A stretch of 64,000 nt of DNA from Rhodospirillales bacterium (GTDB lineage: Bacteria > Pseudomonadota > Alphaproteobacteria > ATCC43930 > CGMCC-115725). Below are positions 26,426 through 35,409 of this stretch, piece after piece. Each line of letters opens with the position of its first letter. Within the stretch, counting starts at the first letter, position 1. A program made the position numbers and the translations under genes. The stretch spans positions 1-64,000 of the forward strand of contig DAHUYF010000207.1 of the NCBI GenBank assembly GCA_027315365.1. Direction: 5' to 3'. The notes beneath the pieces are model-generated. The model had not been told where the DNA came from and did no database searches. It was given only the letters and a program-made list of their open reading frames with translations.

Positions 26426-26665
26426 CTACTTCCAGACCGGCTTGCCGAGATCGACTTGCGACGGCGTCGTCGCCGCGCCGACGGCGCCGCCCGCAGCGGC
26501 GCCGAGCGCTGCGCCGGCCAGCGGCACGCCGATCAGCGCGCCAGCGACCGCACCGGTCGCGGCGCCGATGCCGGCGCCGCTTACCGCGCGGTCGCCCGTG
26601 GTGCTGCCGCAGGCCGAGAGCAGCAGGCCGATGGCGATCACGCTGAAGCCGAGACGTGCATGCAT
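26426..26665 (-). CDS. Glycine-zipper lipoprotein
   Basis: A 79-aa outer-membrane-type lipoprotein. A short signal ends in the lipobox LLLSAC, and a Gly/Ala-rich zipper (GAGIGAATGAVAGALIG, then GAALGAAAGGAVGAA) makes up most of the mature chain. Such proteins (YMGG/SlyB-like) insert in or brace the envelope, often under stress. ATG 26665 has GGAGG 6 nt upstream; ATG 26668 is one codon earlier. It is monocistronic and convergent with the 140-aa hypothetical gene. Confidence 0.85.
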   Translation of the reverse strand: MHARLGFSVIAIGLLLSACGSTTGDRAVSGAGIGAATGAVAGALIGVPLAGAALGAAAGGAVGAATTPSQVDLGKPVWK

Positions 26666-26861
26666 CATGTCCCTCCGGAACAGAAGACCGGCGGCATTCT
26701 AGTCGCGCGCCTCCGTTCTGCAAAGCATCGGGCGGCGAAGATGGCGCTCACTTGCTCCGACTCTGTGGCGCTTTTTGGGCAATGGCCCCCGGCACACCGG
26801 CGCTGCTCGGGGATCGAAAGCGGCTTCCGCTTGTTATTTCGGCAGGAGAGGGAGGTGCGAC

Positions 26862-28042: not shown

Positions 28043-30073
28043 TTACTGCGCCGCCTGCTCGCCGCGCCCCGCCAGCGCCCGCTCCGCCAGCTTGCCGGTC
28101 AGCTCCTGGAGGTGGTCGAAGCGGTCGGTATAGGTGCCCACCCCGAGGGTCACCGAGCGCAGCTCGACGATGAGATCGTGCAGCTCGGCCTGCGGCAGCT
28201 GCGCCGCGACCACGTCCCAGCCGTCCCAACCGGGCTTGGCGTCATAGCCCAGGATCTGGCCGCGCCGGCCGGAAATCACCCGCTGCACCCGCGAGGTGAA
28301 GGCGTTCGGCACCGAGATCTCGACGTAATGGATCGGCTCGAGCAGCACCGGCTCGCATTTCGGCATGGCCTCGCTCATCGCCATGCGGGCGCAGGTCTTG
28401 AACGCCTGGTCGGAGCTGTCGACGGCGTGGAACTGGCCGGTCAGCAGCGTCACCGACACGTCGACCACGGGAAAGCCGAGCGGGCCGTGGCGCAGGAATT
28501 CCATCACGCCTTCCTCGACCGCGGGTATGTAGTTGCGGGGAATGGCACCGCCGACCACGCCGTCGGTGAAGCTGTGGCCGGTGGCGCGCGGCAGCGGCCG
28601 CACCTCGATCTGGATGTCGGCGAACTGGCCGTGACCGCCCGACTGGCGCTTGAAGCGCGCGTGCTGCGCCGTGCCCTTGCGGATCGTCTCCTTGTAGGGG
28701 ATTTGCGGCTTCCGCGCCGTCACCGGCAGGTTGTACTTGTTGCGCAGCCGGTCGATGGCGATCTGCAGATGGATGTCGCCCTGCCCCCACAGCACCATCT
28801 CCTGCAGCTCGGCGCTCTGCTCCAGATGCAGCGTCGGATCCTCCTCGACGAGCTTGGCGATGGTCGGGGTGAGCTTGACGTCGTCGGCGCGCTTTTCCGC
28901 GACGAGCGCCAGCCCATAGACCGGCTTGGGCAGCAGCGGCCGCGGCAGTTGCGGCGCGGCACCGGTGGCCAGCACCGCGCCGGTGGCGACACCCTCCATC
29001 CGCGCCAGCGCCACGACCTCGCCCGCCTGCGCCGCCACAAGCTTTTCCTGATGCGCGCCGGTCAGCCGCAGCACGCCGGCCACCCGCGCGCCGCCCAGCG
29101 TCATGCCGTCGCTCACCTGCCCGCTCCAGACACGGGTCAGCGACAGTTTGCCCGAATGCGGCGCGTGGTAGGTCTTGATCACCTGCGCCACCGTATCCCT
29201 GGCCGGCGCGGCGAGGCCCAGCCGCGCCGCGGTCTGCGCCACGCCGGGGGTCTCGTGGCGCAGCGCCTTCCACAGGCGGCGAACGCCGTGATCCTGCAGC
29301 GCCGAGCCGAGAAACACCGGCACGATGCGGTCGCCGCTCAGGTTCTGCGTCAACTGGCGATAGATCTCGTCCTTCGAGGGCTGCACGTCCTCGAGCAGCT
29401 GCTCCAGCAGCTTGTCGTCGAAATCGGCGAGCTTTTCGATCAGGCCGGCGCGCGTCAACCGCTCCTCCTCGAGCAGGTCGTCGGGCAGCTTGATCAGGTC
29501 GGAGGCCTCGCCGGGCTTGTATCTGTAGGCACGCTCGCTGACCAGATCGACATAGCCGATCGTCTTGCCCTCGGGATCTGGCAGCGGCACCTGGCGCAGC
29601 ACCAGCGGCTTCTGCGACACCGACTGCAGCGCCGCCAGTACCTCGCTGACGCGGGCGTTGGCGCTGTCCATCTTGTTGATGAACACCATGTGGGGAATCT
29701 GGTGGTCGTCCAGAAACTTGAAGAGCGGGCTCAAGGTCAGCACCCGCTCTGTTTCCGGCTCGCAGACCACGACCGCCACATCGGCCGCGAGGAGGGAATT
29801 TTGCGCCTCCCACGCCAGTTCGACCGATCCCGGGCAGTCGAGGATGGTCCAGGGATCGCCGAGGAAAGTGGCGGCGGCGACGTTGAGCTCGGTTGACATC
29901 TGCCGCGCCCGCGCCTCGACGCTGTGATCGCCGACCGTATTGCCGTCCTTGATCGCGCCGCGGCGATGGGTCGTGCCGCTGGCGAAGAGCAGCGCTTCGA
30001 GCAGGCTGGTCTTGCCCGAGAGGTAGGGCCCGACCAGCGCGGCGCAGCGCGGTCCCGCGGATCTGTCGGTCAT
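28043..30073 (-). CDS. Elongation factor G-like GTPase (EF-G paralogue)
   Basis: A 676-aa translational-GTPase paralogue with all five EF-G domains. The G domain is diverged: P-loop GPYLSGKTS instead of the usual AHIDAGKTT, switch II DCPGSVEL instead of DTPGHVDF, but an intact NKMD. Later domains show PIPYKETIRK-type EF-G sequence (QIPYKETIRKGTAQHARFKRQSGGHGQFAD) and the C-terminal GRRGQILGYD. Such EF-G-like proteins occur beside a normal fusA in many alphaproteobacteria; their role is not settled (ribosome recycling or stress-specific translation is possible). ATG 30073 is set by GGAGG 6 nt upstream. It stands 175 bp after the first 75-aa paralogue. Confidence 0.88.
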   Translation of the reverse strand: MTDRSAGPRCAALVGPYLSGKTSLLEALLFASGTTHRRGAIKDGNTVGDHSVEARARQMSTELNVAAATFLGDPWTILDCPGSVELAWEAQNSLLAADVAVVVCEPETERVLTLSPLFKFLDDHQIPHMVFINKMDSANARVSEVLAALQSVSQKPLVLRQVPLPDPEGKTIGYVDLVSERAYRYKPGEASDLIKLPDDLLEEERLTRAGLIEKLADFDDKLLEQLLEDVQPSKDEIYRQLTQNLSGDRIVPVFLGSALQDHGVRRLWKALRHETPGVAQTAARLGLAAPARDTVAQVIKTYHAPHSGKLSLTRVWSGQVSDGMTLGGARVAGVLRLTGAHQEKLVAAQAGEVVALARMEGVATGAVLATGAAPQLPRPLLPKPVYGLALVAEKRADDVKLTPTIAKLVEEDPTLHLEQSAELQEMVLWGQGDIHLQIAIDRLRNKYNLPVTARKPQIPYKETIRKGTAQHARFKRQSGGHGQFADIQIEVRPLPRATGHSFTDGVVGGAIPRNYIPAVEEGVMEFLRHGPLGFPVVDVSVTLLTGQFHAVDSSDQAFKTCARMAMSEAMPKCEPVLLEPIHYVEISVPNAFTSRVQRVISGRRGQILGYDAKPGWDGWDVVAAQLPQAELHDLIVELRSVTLGVGTYTDRFDHLQELTGKLAERALAGRGEQAAQ

Positions 30074-30236: not shown

Positions 30237-30248
30237 ACCAGAGGGCGA

Positions 30249-30476
30249 TCACTCCGCGGCGGCACCCGCAGCGGGTCCAGCCTCGCGCGACGCGTCCTCC
30301 TTGGCCTTGCGTTCGAGCCGCTTGGCCGTCTCCTCGAAGCGGACGGCACGTCTCATCGCATCCTGCTGCCCGCTTCCCTGAAGAAAGAGCGCGAGCCGGC
30401 GCGTCTGCAACGACAGGAGCCGCCACTGCCGCGCAATGTCGGTGTATGAGACGGGCTGGCCGTCGCGCTCCTCCAC
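30249..30476 (-). CDS. 75-aa helical protein, paralogue A
   Basis: An unrecognised 75-aa protein of mostly charged helix (SYTDIARQWRLLSLQTRRLA, then RFEETAKRLERKA). It is clearly paralogous to the gene at 30887-31114: the cores differ at only a few positions and the best-fit lengths are identical. A GTG start at 30476 is chosen because it aligns with paralogue B and has GGAG 8 nt upstream, with a nearly identical leader (GGAGCTGA-GCGGTG) in both. The frame continues upstream of the GTG. No function is known; the small size, amphipathic helix and stress-linked neighbours suggest a regulatory or ribosome-associated peptide, as a guess. Confidence 0.75.
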   Translation of the reverse strand: MEERDGQPVSYTDIARQWRLLSLQTRRLALFLQGSGQQDAMRRAVRFEETAKRLERKAKEDASREAGPAAGAAAE

Positions 30477-30480
30477 CGCC

Positions 30481-30570
30481 TCAGCTCCGAGCACGACGGC
30501 CGCCCGGCGCACAGATCGGGGCCGGCACAGCGGCGCCTGCACAATCGGACAGGACGATCCGTCTCGCCAT
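30481..30570 (-). CDS. Possible 29-codon leader peptide before paralogue A
   Basis: A short frame (MARRIVLSDCAG..., 29 aa) has a strong GGAGG 7 nt before its ATG. Its TGA stop lies inside the GGAGCTGA that serves as ribosome-binding site of paralogue A, so translation of one would reload ribosomes on the other. The sequence is Arg/Pro/Ala-rich, typical of random G+C-rich DNA, so the coding nature rests on the signals alone. Confidence 0.3.
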   Translation of the reverse strand: MARRIVLSDCAGAAVPAPICAPGGRRARS

Positions 30571-30662
30571 CACGCCACCTCCGGTCAGGAGCAATCGATC
30601 GTCAGGCGATGCCCTGCGACATCGCGCCCGCCGTAAGCACGCTACCGCCGAGCGCGGGCGGC

Positions 30663-30686
30663 GAGAATACGCGCGAGCACGTATCC
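30663..30686. repeat. ATACG/CGTAT palindrome, copy 1
   Basis: An imperfect palindrome (ATACGCGC-GA-GCACGTAT at 30667-30684, one mismatch between arms) within 24 bp that recurs exactly at 32701-32724. It lies in the gap between the two 75-aa paralogues. See also copy 2 at 30835-30854. It is a candidate operator shared by this block. Confidence 0.65.
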
Positions 30687-30705
30687 CGCGCCCGCCCGCG
30701 AAAAT

Positions 30706-30739
30706 CGTGGAGCCCCGCCGAGGGTGGCGGGGCTCCACG
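30706..30739 (-). terminator. Probable intrinsic terminator after otsA and paralogue B
   Basis: A perfect 14-bp stem (30706-30719 with 30726-30739, loop GAGGGT) is followed on minus by ATTTTC, a short T-run. It lies about 150 bp beyond the stop of paralogue B. The T-run is weak, so partial read-through towards paralogue A is plausible. Confidence 0.5.
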
Positions 30740-30834
30740 CAGTGGCGCTTCGGTCCTTGATAACGCATCTGCTGCCGCCGAACCGGGGCCAGATGCATCG
30801 GCCCTTACCAAACCACGCATCTGGCGATCCCGTC

Positions 30835-30854
30835 GATACGTGCTCGCACGTATC
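30835..30854. repeat. ATACG/CGTAT palindrome, copy 2 (perfect)
   Basis: GATACGTGC and GCACGTATC form perfect 9-bp arms around TC. It sits 33 bp beyond the stop of paralogue B in the otherwise empty 410-bp gap 30477-30886. That gap also contains copy 1, the possible leader peptide and the hairpin at 30706-30739. Confidence 0.6.
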
Positions 30855-30886
30855 CAAGCCTGGCCGCGACGGCCGGCCGAGGGCGG

Positions 30887-31114
30887 TCACTCCCGTTTGG
30901 CTGCCTCGTCGCCCTCGCGCTCATGCGATATGCTCTCCTGGGCCTTGCGCTCGAACAATTTGGCGGTTTCCTCGAACCGTGCGGCGCGCCTCATGGCTTC
31001 CTCATGCCCGGTTCCCTGGAGGAAGAGCGCGAGACGGCGCGTCTGCAACGCCAGCAGCCGCCACTGCCGCGCGATTTCGGAGTAGGAGGTTGCCTGGCGA
31101 TCGCGCTCGTCCAC
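30887..31114 (-). CDS. 75-aa helical protein, paralogue B
   Basis: An unrecognised 75-aa, charged helical protein (SYSEIARQWRLLALQTRRLA, then RFEETAKLFERKAQ), paralogous to the gene at 30249-30476 over its whole length. It starts with GTG at 31114, with GGGAG 8 nt upstream in the same leader context as its twin. It begins 20 bp after the otsA stop on the same strand, so it is probably cotranscribed with trehalose-phosphate synthase. The duplication with its leader suggests a recent local event. A role in osmotic or general stress is inferred from the operon only. Confidence 0.8.
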   Translation of the reverse strand: MDERDRQATSYSEIARQWRLLALQTRRLALFLQGTGHEEAMRRAARFEETAKLFERKAQESISHEREGDEAAKRE

Positions 31115-31134
31115 GCTTCAGCTCCCGCCAACGC

Positions 31135-32547
31135 TCATGTCGCCGCCATGCGCGCGAACCCTTGCGCCCGGCGTTCCCCGGCATCGGCGAGCGCAGCGAG
31201 ATAGGCGTCGCGCCATCCCTCAATCGTGTTGTCGCGCAGGATCGCGATCATCGAACGCCATCGCTCCTGCCGTTCTTCGCGCGGCATGGCAAGCGCGCGG
31301 TGGAGCGCGCCGGCGATCTCCGACGTGTCGATGGGGTTGACCAGCAACGCGCCGCCCAGCTCCCTGGCCGCGCCGGCGAAGCGCGACAGGACCAGCACGC
31401 CGGGATCCGATGCGGTCTGCGCGGCGACGAACTCCTTCGCCACCAGGTTCATGCCGTCGCGCAGCGGCGTCACCAGCCCGACATGCGCCAGGCGGTAGAA
31501 GGCGGCGAGCGTCTGGCGCGAGAACCCCTTGTTCACGTAGTGGATCGGCGACCAGTCGCATTCGGCGTATTTGCCGTTGATGCGGCCGGCTGACGCCTCG
31601 AGCTCGCGCCGCAGCGCGCGATAGTGCGGCAGCTCGTCGCGCGAATGGGGCGTCACCTGCAGATAATCCACCTCGCGCCGATGCTCCGGGTGCTCCTCGA
31701 GGAGCTTCTCGATCGCCTTGAAGCGCTGCGCGATGCCCTTGCTGTAATCGAGACGGTCGACGCCGATGACCAGGCTCCGACCATGGACACTATCCGCCAG
31801 GCGGCGCACCTCCATCGACTGCGCCGCGTGACCGGCGGCGCCGGCGAATGCGTCGGCGTCGATGCCGATGGGGAACACGCCGGTGCGGCACGTCCTGCCG
31901 CCGGCGAGGAACCGGCCGCCGCCGGCTTGCCGACCCGAACCGAGCTTCCCGACGCATCCGAGATATGCCTGCCGGGACTCCTCGGTCTGGAAGCCCACCA
32001 GATCGTATGCGCCAAGCGCCGCGATCAGTTCCTCGTGCCGCGGCAAGGCGGTGAAGACATCGGCAGACGGAAACGGCGTGTGCAGGAAGAAACCGATCGG
32101 GTTTCCGACACCGAAGCGCCGAAGCGCCGCCGCGAATGGGATCAGATGATAATCGTGCACCCAGACGAGATCGTCCGGCTGCAGCAGCGGCAACAGGCTG
32201 CGCGCCATCCGCGCATTGACCTGCAGGTAGCCCTCGTAATGGTCGCGGTCATAATCGACGAGACCGAGACGGTAATGCAGGATGGGCCACAGCGTGGCAT
32301 TGGAGAAACCGAGATAATACCGCTCGTACTCCGCGCGCGTGAGATCAAGCGTCACATAGGTCGTCGCGCCGGATGTCAGCGTTCTCGGCGCTCCGGCATC
32401 GCTTTCCGCGACATCGCCGCTCCAGCCGAACCAGAGGCCGGGACGTCCGCGGAGTGCCTCTCGCATCACCACGGCCAGCCCTCCGGCCGAGGCGGCGCGG
32501 GCCTGGGGAGCACTTACGCGATTGGATACGGCGATCGTTCTCGCCAA
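31135..32547 (-). CDS. otsA: Trehalose-6-phosphate synthase OtsA
   Basis: A GT20 glycosyltransferase making trehalose-6-phosphate from UDP-glucose and glucose-6-phosphate for osmotic and desiccation protection. Family landmarks in order are TIAVSNRVS and GGLAVVMREALRG (UDP-glucose loop), LWPILHYR, VWVHDYHLIPFAAALR, GFFLHTPFPSADVFTALP, IGVDRLDYSKGI, and LVTPLRDGMNLVAKEFVAAQ. A TTG start at 32547 with AAAGGT 8 nt upstream gives 470 aa, the normal length; in-frame ATGs further up lie in sequence unlike OtsA. The phosphatase partner otsB is not in the window. It is divergent from the MASE1 kinase and upstream of paralogue B. Confidence 0.95.
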   Translation of the reverse strand: MARTIAVSNRVSAPQARAASAGGLAVVMREALRGRPGLWFGWSGDVAESDAGAPRTLTSGATTYVTLDLTRAEYERYYLGFSNATLWPILHYRLGLVDYDRDHYEGYLQVNARMARSLLPLLQPDDLVWVHDYHLIPFAAALRRFGVGNPIGFFLHTPFPSADVFTALPRHEELIAALGAYDLVGFQTEESRQAYLGCVGKLGSGRQAGGGRFLAGGRTCRTGVFPIGIDADAFAGAAGHAAQSMEVRRLADSVHGRSLVIGVDRLDYSKGIAQRFKAIEKLLEEHPEHRREVDYLQVTPHSRDELPHYRALRRELEASAGRINGKYAECDWSPIHYVNKGFSRQTLAAFYRLAHVGLVTPLRDGMNLVAKEFVAAQTASDPGVLVLSRFAGAARELGGALLVNPIDTSEIAGALHRALAMPREERQERWRSMIAILRDNTIEGWRDAYLAALADAGERRAQGFARMAAT

Positions 32548-32700
32548 TATACTACCTTTGGCTAGCGCGGCTCGACCATAAGGGCGAGCCTCGGGCGGTG
32601 AGCGCGTCTCTCGAATCCCGCACGCAGAGAAGGCTATCCGCATCTTCCCTTGCCGCGCCGAGCGCCGAGAACCCACTAGCTATCGCAGAGCGGAAGCTGA

Positions 32701-32724
32701 GAGAATACGCGCGAGCACGTATCC
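32701..32724. repeat. ATACG/CGTAT palindrome, copy 3
   Basis: Identical over 24 bp to copy 1 (30663-30686), with the palindrome itself at 32705-32722. It lies just upstream of the Shine-Dalgarno of the MASE1 kinase gene, in the divergent control region with otsA. This position suits an operator acting on one or both directions. Confidence 0.65.
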
Positions 32725-32740
32725 GCCTGCGGAGGATCGA

Positions 32741-34786
32741 GTGAGAGCAAGGATCGCAGACGCGCCGCTGCGACGCACATGGACGGCCGGCATCTTTCGT
32801 GCCGACGGCCTCTGGCCGAAGCTTGCGCTTTCGCTTGGCTATATCGTTCTCTACGTCGCCTTCGATCGCCTCAGCTTCCTGGAGCCGCTTGCCGGCGTCG
32901 ACATCACGCCGTGGAATCCACAGCCGGGCCTGACCCTCGCCTTGCTCGTCGCCAAGGGCTGGGCCTACCTGCCGGTGGCGATGGCGGCGGAGATCGTCTC
33001 GAGCAAGATCGTGCCGCTGGTCGACATTCCGCTCTCCGTGGCGGTGCCGGCCGCGCTCGCCTCGACGGCCAGCTACGCCGCAGCCGCGACGGTGCTGCGA
33101 CGCCATCTCGGCGGCCGGGCGGAATTGCAGCGCACCGGCGACGTCATGGTGCTGATCGCGGTCGTGATCGCGGCAGCCGGCGCGGCGACGCTCGGCTTCG
33201 TCGCGATCTATACCGCCGGCGGCCTGCTGCCGGCGGCAGACTTCGCCGAAGCGGATGTCCAGCTCTGGATCGGCGACGCGATCGGCGCGGTGGTTATCAC
33301 GCCCCTGGCACTCGGCCTGCTGTCCCTGGGCCGGGCCGGCATCCGGTCGTTCCGCGCGCGGCCGGCCGAAATCGCGGAGACGCTGCTGCAGCTGCTAGGC
33401 ATCGTCGGCGTGCTGTTCATCGTGTTCGGCTTCACGCACGACCGCTACATGTTCCGGCTCTTCTATCTGCTGTTCGTGCCGCTGATCTGGATCGCGGTGC
33501 GGCGCGGATTGGCGGGCGCCGGCTGGGCCGTCCTTGCCATCCAGCTCGGTCTGATCGCGGCGCTCGAATTCGAGAACGCGCAGGTCGCGACGATCCGCCA
33601 GTTTCAGCTGGTCATGTTCGCCGTGGCGACGACCGGCCTCATGCTGGGCGCCGCGGTGACCGAGCGCCATCGCGCGCTGCGCGCGCTCGCCGATAGCGAG
33701 AGCCGGCTTGCCACCATCGTCGACACGGCGCGCGACGCGGTGCTGACGATCGACGGCGCCGGCCGCATCGGATCGGCCAATCCGGCGGTCGCCCGGTTGT
33801 TCGGGCATCCGGCGCCGCTTCTGGTCGGGCGCGACGTGCGCGAGCTGATCGAGACGCCGGAGCCGCTGGCAAGCTTCGTTCCCGCCGACTCGGTGCCGTC
33901 CGACCCGGCGGCGCCCTGGCAGCTCGAAGGCAAGCGCACCGACGGTCGGCCTTTCCCGATCGAGGTCACGGCGGGAAGATTCGGCGCCGCCGACGACGCG
34001 CACTACACCCTGGTGGTCCGCGACGTGACCTCGCGGCGCGACGCGGAGATGCGCATGCGGAGCCACGAGTCCGAGATGGCACAGGGATCGCGGCTGTCGC
34101 TCGCCGACGCCCTGGCGACAGCGATCGCTCATGAGATCAACCAGCCGCTGACCGCGATCACCACCTTCGCCCGCGGCTGCCTGCGCATGATCCGGGCGCC
34201 GCACCCGGAGACGCGCATGCTGCAAGAAGGCATCGAGCACATCGCGCAACAGGCCGAGCGCGCCGGCGACATCATCGAACGGCTGCGCGATTTCGTTCGC
34301 GGCGGGACCTGCCAGCTGTCGCCGTCGGATGTGAGAGTGATGCTCGACGCCGCGGTGGCGCTCATCGAGACCGAGGCCAGCCAAGGCAACGTCAGCGTGT
34401 CGTTCGACGTGCCCGCCGATCCGCCGCGCGTCATGGCCGATCGCCTTCAGGTCGAGCAAGTGCTGGTCAACCTGCTGCGCAACGCCATCGATGCCGCCGC
34501 CGGCGCGGCCGAGCGGCGGGTGGATATCGCCGTGCAGCCGATTGCCGGCGGACAGCTGCAGGTCGCCGTCGCCGATTCCGGACCGGGGGTCAGCGACGAG
34601 GTCGCGAGCCGGCTGTTCGATCCCTTCGTCACCACCAAGACGGGCGGGATGGGCCTCGGCCTGTCGATCAGCCGCTCGATCATCGAGGCGCATGGCGGCC
34701 GCCTCGAACTGCTCCGCAGCGGCGATACCGGCAGCGTCTTCGCCTTCACCTTGCCCGTTGCCGCGGCCGAGGCGCGCCTATCGTGA
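32741..34786 (+). CDS. MASE1-PAS sensor histidine kinase
   Basis: A 681-aa membrane sensor kinase. About 300 N-terminal residues form the MASE1 multi-span sensor region, a PAS domain follows (about 322-440, ESRLATIVDTARDAVLTIDG ... VVRDVTSRRDAE), then HisKA with phospho-acceptor His464 in AIAHEINQPLTAITT and HATPase_c (NLLRNAIDAA, VADSGPGVS, GGMGLGLSISRSIIEAHGG). The NQPL H-box and downstream FixJ-type regulator place it in the FixL/TodS group. The GTG start has GGAGG 5 nt upstream. Its end overlaps the regulator start (GTGA), so the two are coupled. The stimulus is unknown; no haem-ligand His could be picked out with confidence. Confidence 0.93.
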   Translation: MRARIADAPLRRTWTAGIFRADGLWPKLALSLGYIVLYVAFDRLSFLEPLAGVDITPWNPQPGLTLALLVAKGWAYLPVAMAAEIVSSKIVPLVDIPLSVAVPAALASTASYAAAATVLRRHLGGRAELQRTGDVMVLIAVVIAAAGAATLGFVAIYTAGGLLPAADFAEADVQLWIGDAIGAVVITPLALGLLSLGRAGIRSFRARPAEIAETLLQLLGIVGVLFIVFGFTHDRYMFRLFYLLFVPLIWIAVRRGLAGAGWAVLAIQLGLIAALEFENAQVATIRQFQLVMFAVATTGLMLGAAVTERHRALRALADSESRLATIVDTARDAVLTIDGAGRIGSANPAVARLFGHPAPLLVGRDVRELIETPEPLASFVPADSVPSDPAAPWQLEGKRTDGRPFPIEVTAGRFGAADDAHYTLVVRDVTSRRDAEMRMRSHESEMAQGSRLSLADALATAIAHEINQPLTAITTFARGCLRMIRAPHPETRMLQEGIEHIAQQAERAGDIIERLRDFVRGGTCQLSPSDVRVMLDAAVALIETEASQGNVSVSFDVPADPPRVMADRLQVEQVLVNLLRNAIDAAAGAAERRVDIAVQPIAGGQLQVAVADSGPGVSDEVASRLFDPFVTTKTGGMGLGLSISRSIIEAHGGRLELLRSGDTGSVFAFTLPVAAAEARLS

Positions 34787-35409
34787 CCGACGGGACCGTC
34801 TTCCTGGTCGACGACGACGAGGCGGTGCGCCGCGGCATCTCGTTCCTGCTGCGCGCCGCGGGCCACACGATCCAGGCCTTCCCCGCGGCGGCGGCGTTTC
34901 TCGAAGCCTACGATCCCGAGAGCCGCGGCTGCCTGCTTCTCGATGTCCGCATGCCGCGGATGACCGGCCTGCAGCTGCAGCGGGCGCTCGCCGCGCGCGG
35001 CTGGCAGATTCCGACGATCTTCGTCACCGGCCACGCGACCGTGCCGATGGCGATCGCGGCGATGAAGGCGGGAGCGTTCGACTTCATCGAAAAGCCGTTG
35101 CGCGACGAGGCCCTGCTGGAGAGCGTCGCGCGGGCGCTGGCGTGGAGCAGGAACCGCCGGGACGAAGACGTTCAGCTCGCCGAGATCAGCGCCCGCGCCG
35201 CGCTTCTCACGGCGAGGGAGCGCGAGATCCTCATGCATGTCGCCGCCGGCGAGCCCAACAAGACGATCGCCCGCCGGCTCGGCATCAGCTACCGCACGGT
35301 CGAACTGCACCGCTCGCACATCCTGGAAAAGATGAAGGCCCGGACCTTGGCCGAACTGATCCGCCTGGCGCTGCTGATGGAGCATCCCGGCGCCGGCGCG
35401 CGGAATTAG
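34783..35409 (+). CDS. FixJ-family response regulator (receiver + LuxR HTH)
   Basis: A 208-aa two-domain regulator. The receiver domain has the acidic pocket (VDDDEA), phosphorylation site Asp54 in CLLLDVRMPRMTG, the conserved Thr in FVTGHAT and Lys in FIEKPL. A LuxR-type helix-turn-helix follows at about 140-200 (LTAREREILMHVAAGEPNKTIARRLGISYRTVELHRSHILEKM). It starts at GTG 34783 inside the kinase stop. It is the cognate partner of the MASE1 kinase. Likely targets include neighbours; the tandem repeats before the MFS gene at 35466-35503 are candidates, as inference. Confidence 0.95.
   Translation: MTDGTVFLVDDDEAVRRGISFLLRAAGHTIQAFPAAAAFLEAYDPESRGCLLLDVRMPRMTGLQLQRALAARGWQIPTIFVTGHATVPMAIAAMKAGAFDFIEKPLRDEALLESVARALAWSRNRRDEDVQLAEISARAALLTAREREILMHVAAGEPNKTIARRLGISYRTVELHRSHILEKMKARTLAELIRLALLMEHPGAGARN

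Follow-up and report, generated by a model that had tools for sequence, protein, structure and literature searches.

A four-copy palindrome around otsA and a MASE1 sensor kinase gene as a candidate operator of a FixJ-type response regulator in a Rhodospirillales bacterium

Background

A stretch of 64,000 nucleotides from a Rhodospirillales bacterium (assembly GCA_027315365.1, contig DAHUYF010000207.1, positions 1 to 64,000), hereafter called the window, contains three copies of a nearly symmetric sequence around a trehalose-6-phosphate synthase gene (otsA) and a sensor kinase gene. Their arrangement raises the question whether this palindrome is a regulatory site shared by the neighbouring genes and, if so, which protein would read it. 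The original prediction had left two answers standing, a shared operator of the linked FixJ-type regulator or a small mobile repeat.

Results and discussion

Sequence and copy number of the palindrome

The 24-bp sequence GAGAATACGCGCGAGCACGTATCC is present with the same letters at positions 30663-30686 (box 1) and 32701-32724 (box 3), and a version with two perfect 9-bp arms, GATACGTGC-TC-GCACGTATC, is located at 30835-30854 (box 2), exactly where the original prediction had placed them. No strand is assigned to any of these boxes, and all three fit ATACGYGCNNGCRCGTAT without a mismatch. The core of box 1, ATACGCGC-GA-GCACGTAT, covers 30667-30684 and that of box 3 covers 32705-32722; in both, one position of the arms is mismatched (TACGCG with CACGTA). 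Boxes 1 and 2 are inverted relative to each other. Between them lies a perfect hairpin with a 14-bp stem (30706-30739, likewise without strand), which is possibly the end of the transcript of otsA and the small gene p2 described below and which was not flagged by terminator calling.

The genome-wide motif count that had been proposed was run on 4,966,495 bases in 215 contigs, and the pattern ATACGYGC-NN-GCRCGTAT was found at four places rather than hundreds, namely boxes 1 to 3 and a fourth copy on contig C130 (C130:96987-97004, box 4), against about 0.003 places expected from the base composition of the window. A reversed-pattern control gave no place in this genome with up to one mismatch. 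Five more places carry the palindrome with two mismatches, which is near background, since the reversed control has three such places. A two-mismatch palindrome on contig C134 (L006:1501-1518) is found ~130 bp ahead of a stressosome-type gene (RsbRD-STAS) and could be due to chance. When the half-site GCGAGCACGTATC was searched in the genome with up to one mismatch, the four exact places were the boxes themselves, and at the nine one-mismatch places the second arm was unmatched. The central dinucleotide GA/TC is constant in all four copies (box 4 corresponding to L001:1501-1518), a feature that a dimer reading two symmetric half-sites leaves unexplained.

Genes adjoining the boxes

Box 3 indeed lies in the divergent region between otsA and the kinase gene. 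The otsA gene (31135-32547, minus strand) matches Pfam Glyco_transf_20 (3.4e-119) and scores 559 bits with TIGR02400, the cut-off of which is 565. The TTG at 32547 was taken as its start in view of the N-terminus of OtsA and of an AGGT just ahead of it; the longest ORF begins at 32676. With the TTG as start, box 3 lies ~166 bp upstream of otsA. The genome contains a second otsA on contig C78, which is 54% identical to that of the window. Directly 3' of otsA, p2 (30887-31114, minus strand) encodes a protein of 75 amino acids without any family match, and its paralogue p1 (30249-30476, minus strand), 71% identical to it, is preceded by an ORF of 29 amino acids (30481-30570, minus strand). Box 2 is located between p2 and box 1, and box 1 lies ~105 bp 5' of the 29-amino-acid ORF, so that both copies are found between the small paralogues, as had been noticed. 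Downstream of p1 lies a gene for an EF-G-like protein with all EF-G domains (28043-30073), and 26426-26668 encodes a small protein with a glycine zipper (Gly-zipper_YMGG, 3.3e-07), the N-terminus of which is lipoprotein-like.

On the other side of box 3, which is 17 bp upstream of its GTG start codon, the sensor kinase gene (32741-34786, plus strand) begins after a GGAGGA and encodes a MASE1-PAS-HisKA-HATPase_c protein. We know of no signal for the MASE1 input domain. The kinase gene is followed by the gene of a response regulator with REC and GerE domains (34783-35409, plus strand), the recognition helix of which reads ISYRTVELHR. Box 3 therefore stands just ahead of the operon that encodes this REC-GerE regulator, and three of the four exact copies stand around that operon. 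The regulator scores 226.1 bits with the FixJ model (NF006900; curated cut-off 255), and the kinase scores 265.2 bits with the FixL model (NF041777; cut-off 850), the match covering residues 306-676 only, with MASE1 in front. Both scores are below the cut-offs, the regulator being FixJ-like and the kinase resembling FixL in its C-terminal part alone. We class the boxes with the NarL/FixJ-type operators, and the kinase-regulator system as a FixJ paralogue rather than as FixJ. A canonical FixL-FixJ pair is encoded elsewhere in the genome, on contig C61 (L088:3507-5316), and its regulator reaches 262.4 bits, which exceeds the FixJ threshold (255).

Box 4, the arms of which reach 14 bp, lies ~287 bp ahead of a tandem pair of lipoprotein-like genes (C130:95702-96708, L001:216-1222), which are paralogues with 45% identity and have no Pfam match. 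Distances between box and start codon range from ~105 bp up to 287 bp, and a search for sigma-70 promoters close to the window boxes gave none.

A probable diverged copy of the otsA-p2 unit

The arrangement of box 1, the 29-amino-acid ORF and p1 resembles that of box 3, otsA and p2, and the position of box 1 corresponds to that of box 3. DNA similarity extends from the box through the start codon, where the start region of the ORF resembles that of otsA, and is found again through p1/p2. The alignment of the two units scored better than all 300 shuffles, also when the box region was removed, whereas the 29-amino-acid ORF and otsA gave no significant alignment at the protein level alone, 576 of 1000 shuffles doing equally well. 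The p1 unit (window 30248-32725 for both units) thus looks like a diverged copy of otsA-p2 from which most of otsA is missing, and the 29-amino-acid ORF may be the remnant of a second otsA. Between the two units the 24-bp site is unchanged (24 of 24 positions) and the adjoining 22 bp match at 15, which is the pattern expected if the site is under selection.

Boxes of the same class beside FixJ-type regulators

The core TACGTGC-NN-GCACGTA (16 bp) consists of two inverted heptamers separated by two bases, the 7-2-7 layout of NarL/FixJ operators, and all four copies fit TACG-N8-CGTA. The initial pattern, TAMG-N8-CKTA with two or all three of the inner pairs, was tried on 19 FixJ-type loci of the class (that of C61 and 18 others) and then on all 59 (500 kb), where it gave seven matches, against a mean of 0.55 and a maximum of 3 over 60 shuffles. 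A refined pattern, TAMGKR-N4-YMCKTA, was derived from those seven matches. It was found 12 times in the same 59 loci, from which it had been derived, and four times in 40 held-out FixJ-type loci (341 kb), compared with one match in 400 kb of control DNA, taken from 20 of these genomes, and none in 117 kb of otsA loci. The initial pattern likewise gave four matches in the held-out set, and 0 and 1 in the two controls. Elsewhere in the class, boxes of this kind thus cluster close to the genes of FixJ-type regulators. Most of them lie between the regulator genes and a gene that, by eye, encodes a Crp/FixK-like or single-receiver protein; at locus L094 the box falls within the longest open reading frame of the kinase.

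In the genome under study the refined pattern has three places, boxes 2 and 4, which fit it exactly, and TACGTAGAGATACGTA on contig C118, boxes 1 and 3 missing it by one base; as the reversed control gave four places, this genome-wide count of a degenerate pattern is not itself evidence. The C118 box (C118:54134-54149, L195:1501-1516) is canonical-FixJ-like and is a possible FixJ target of this genome. It lies ~140 bp upstream of a gene (L195:1656-2765) whose product resembles, by eye, a peroxiredoxin/2-oxoglutarate oxygenase fusion.

Distribution in other genomes

The system has an accessory character. Searches at the thresholds applied did not recover the full-length kinase from any of 38 family relatives, nor from a class sample of 384 further genomes. 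The p1/p2 family had one weak match in the 38 relatives, the sole one outside its own genome, and the lineage-specific C130 lipoproteins were found in their own genome only of the 39. Given these search results, no orthologous promoter is available for a footprint comparison. The exact box was absent from 60 relatives. Neither the 28 otsA-homologue loci read from elsewhere nor the second otsA on C78 had a box upstream; three further otsA-homologue places were without a locus. One-mismatch sites were found in the relatives at six places in four genomes, which by a rough estimate is near the number due to chance. The one of these sites that was read (L010) is close to an HTH fragment, by eye of resolvase-like appearance, and was set aside. 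The exact 20-mer was found in 11 stretches of the named genome collection, ten from Streptomyces and one acidobacterial.

The exact core TACGTGC-NN-GCACGTA was searched in 385 genomes of the class and was found, apart from the genome under study, at one foreign place (G319:C16:43826). The reversed control gave three places, so that this count alone is uninformative and only the location is telling. The foreign copy (locus L259) abuts the likely start of a gene for an AroM-GerE regulator, divergent from a DUF917 (S-Me-THD) gene, and the HTH/GerE domain of this regulator is 55% identical to that of the window regulator over 56 residues. Homologues of the AroM-GerE regulator were found on plasmids at seven places in six records, with the gene order kept in the three that were read; relatives of the window response regulator were searched on plasmids at E 1e-45, and none was found. 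The Shinella homologue (L261), with the helix ISHRTVD, has TACGTGCGGCTGCGTA in the same 101-bp gap, and 78 of 20,000 shuffles were as good. The homologues with the helix ISPKTVE have boxes of the TAGGGG/TAAGGG kind in the gap, TAGGGGACTGCCCCTA in Neorhizobium and TAAGGGATGCCCCCTA in Ketogulonicigenium. At all four loci (L259, L261, L262 and L263) AroM-GerE regulators are divergent to DUF917/hydantoinase-type genes, and the sequence of the 7-2-7 box in the gap varies with the recognition helix.

Among 62 helices read from 104 loci, a tyrosine or histidine just before RTV was present only in the window regulator, L259 and the Shinella homologue, whereas all 13 helices read from 16 other box-bearing loci have P, A or V at this position and go with other half-sites. 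The remaining three of the 16 are L233, L250 and L258; L250 has a TACGTG half-site and may either contradict the rule or bear it out. Since it was its box that led to L259, the Shinella locus is the sole fresh test of the association. The window regulator, L259 and the Shinella homologue together hint that Y or H in the helix goes with a TACGTG half-site. It is conceivable, though we hold it only tentatively and would not expect it on balance, that a one-residue switch, Y or H in place of P or A before RTVE, changes the half-site to TACGTG and so enables the MASE1 kinase and its regulator to govern a stress regulon of their own, with trehalose and lipoprotein genes, in a cell that also has the canonical FixLJ.

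Proposed function and alternatives

The palindrome is likely to serve as operator for a response regulator of the NarL/FixJ type, the adjoining one (34783-35409) being the most likely candidate; binding and its sign are both proposed on sequence grounds. This shared operator is the better supported of the two suggestions of the original prediction, as judged from the four copies, the layout, the enrichment in the class and the foreign copy at the promoter of a GerE regulator. The candidate operator would most likely serve otsA-p2, the operon of the p1 remnant and the lipoproteins, and probably also the kinase-regulator operon. The MASE1 kinase would phosphorylate the regulator, which would bind in its phosphorylated state, a GerE-domain dimer reading the two inverted TACGTGC heptamers. 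The bound regulator would activate the leftward otsA-p2 from box 3, the decayed duplicate (the small ORF and p1) from boxes 1 and 2, and the two tandem lipoprotein genes from box 4. On the rightward side, box 3 is only 17 bp before the kinase start codon, and binding there would therefore rather repress; it might limit the kinase-regulator operon, negative autoregulation being likeliest on that side. It should be stressed that we infer the sign at each promoter, activation included. Trehalose synthesis together with lipoproteins suggests a regulon of osmotic, desiccation or envelope stress. Features that count against the proposal are the uneven spacing between box and start codon, the failure to find a sigma-70 promoter close to the window boxes, the one-base departure of boxes 1 and 3 from the refined pattern, and the constant central dinucleotide.

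Alternatively, the boxes could be of the FixJ class but be read by the canonical FixJ of C61 or by a different regulator of the GerE type; oxygen or some other signal, and not the MASE1 kinase, would then govern otsA. The C61 pair exists, with a regulator score above the cut-off, and the boxes share TACGT with known FixJ boxes. However, the helix of this FixJ is ISPRTVE, of the P type, which makes it a less likely reader, as the P, A and V helices go with other half-sites at 13 of 13 box loci read, and the genome has a single TACGTA-type box elsewhere, that of C118. We regard this reading as unlikely. That the boxes belong to some unrelated protein encoded elsewhere, a dimeric repressor or activator of, for example, the TetR or GntR kind, seems quite improbable: box 4 has perfect arms over 14 bp, and long perfect arms also suit proteins of these kinds, but the response regulator is the sole DNA-binding transcription factor among the neighbouring proteins tested with Pfam (two sets of nine), and the comparative evidence (the boxes of the class, the foreign copy and Shinella) favours GerE-type HTH proteins.

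If the boxes were instead copies of a REP-like palindromic repeat, small and mobile or dispersed, or of a recombinase site that had multiplied locally, this would suit the constant GA/TC centre of all four copies, the inverted boxes 1 and 2 and the placing of box 1 by segmental duplication. A dispersed repeat was nevertheless rejected because only four exact copies exist in 4.97 Mb, a number that lends the mobile repeat of the original prediction no support. Moreover, unrelated genomes have exact or near-exact boxes at the promoters of regulators; this reading is very improbable. With regard to a serine-recombinase or inversion site, the resolvase-family genes found were two, on contigs C43 and C89, away from the boxes. 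Finally, an RNA hairpin (terminator or mRNA stem) instead of a protein site can practically be dismissed. In single-stranded DNA folding, box 4 folds well (z -5.30) and the box 1 region moderately (z -2.67), but boxes 2 and 3 do not surpass their shuffles (z -0.01 and 0.88); no terminator was called at the three window boxes, and the arms of boxes 1 and 3 are imperfect.

If the palindrome is the operator of the adjoining regulator, as we favour, an anonymous palindrome becomes a concrete candidate four-site regulon of a MASE1 sensor kinase, with otsA as its direct readout. Should the association of helix and box hold, the operators of many uncharacterised FixJ-type regulators would be predictable from one helix position.

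Comparison with known systems

Our literature search retrieved no paper that combines MASE1, a response regulator, a binding site and an operator. A close layout outside the FixJ systems is that of NarL, which, in the excerpts available of one report, prefers 7-2-7 sites in E. coli, such as TACCCCTAAAGGGGTA, and can repress from a site near the transcription start (PMC4549865). Like the boxes, the NarL sites described there are two inverted heptamers that begin with TAC, are two bases apart and are read by a GerE-domain dimer; the inner bases differ (GTGC in the boxes, CCCT in the NarL sites), as do kinase and signal (PMC4549865).

According to extracts of two further articles, the FixJ site of S. 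meliloti is TAAGTAATTTCCCTTA, of 16 bp (PMC4999443), and the fixK box of R. palustris is GTACGTAG (PMC13327599). As far as these extracts go, the boxes have the 16-bp inverted layout, the outer TAMG and the type of regulator in common with both FixJ operators (PMC4999443, PMC13327599), and TACGT is common to the boxes and to the R. palustris fixK box (PMC13327599). The half-site, however, is TACGTGC in the boxes and TAAGTAA or GTAMGTAG for FixJ (PMC4999443, PMC13327599). The linked genes are also different, being otsA, small genes and lipoproteins here and fixK in the FixJ systems, and the window regulator is below the FixJ cut-off.

The AroM-GerE system (L259 and its Shinella homologue L261) resembles that of the window in having a TACGTGC-type box in its own divergent promoter and an IS[H]RTV helix, but its regulator has an AroM domain instead of a receiver, no linked kinase was seen at these loci, and the neighbours are others. 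Lastly, EupR of Chromohalobacter salexigens, which is presented in the portion of its description at hand as a NarL/FixJ-family regulator of compatible solutes (PMC2964678), differs from the window system in that it controls ectoine uptake and works with a hybrid kinase; it nevertheless provides a precedent for control of compatible solutes by this family, as proposed here for the window regulator (PMC2964678).
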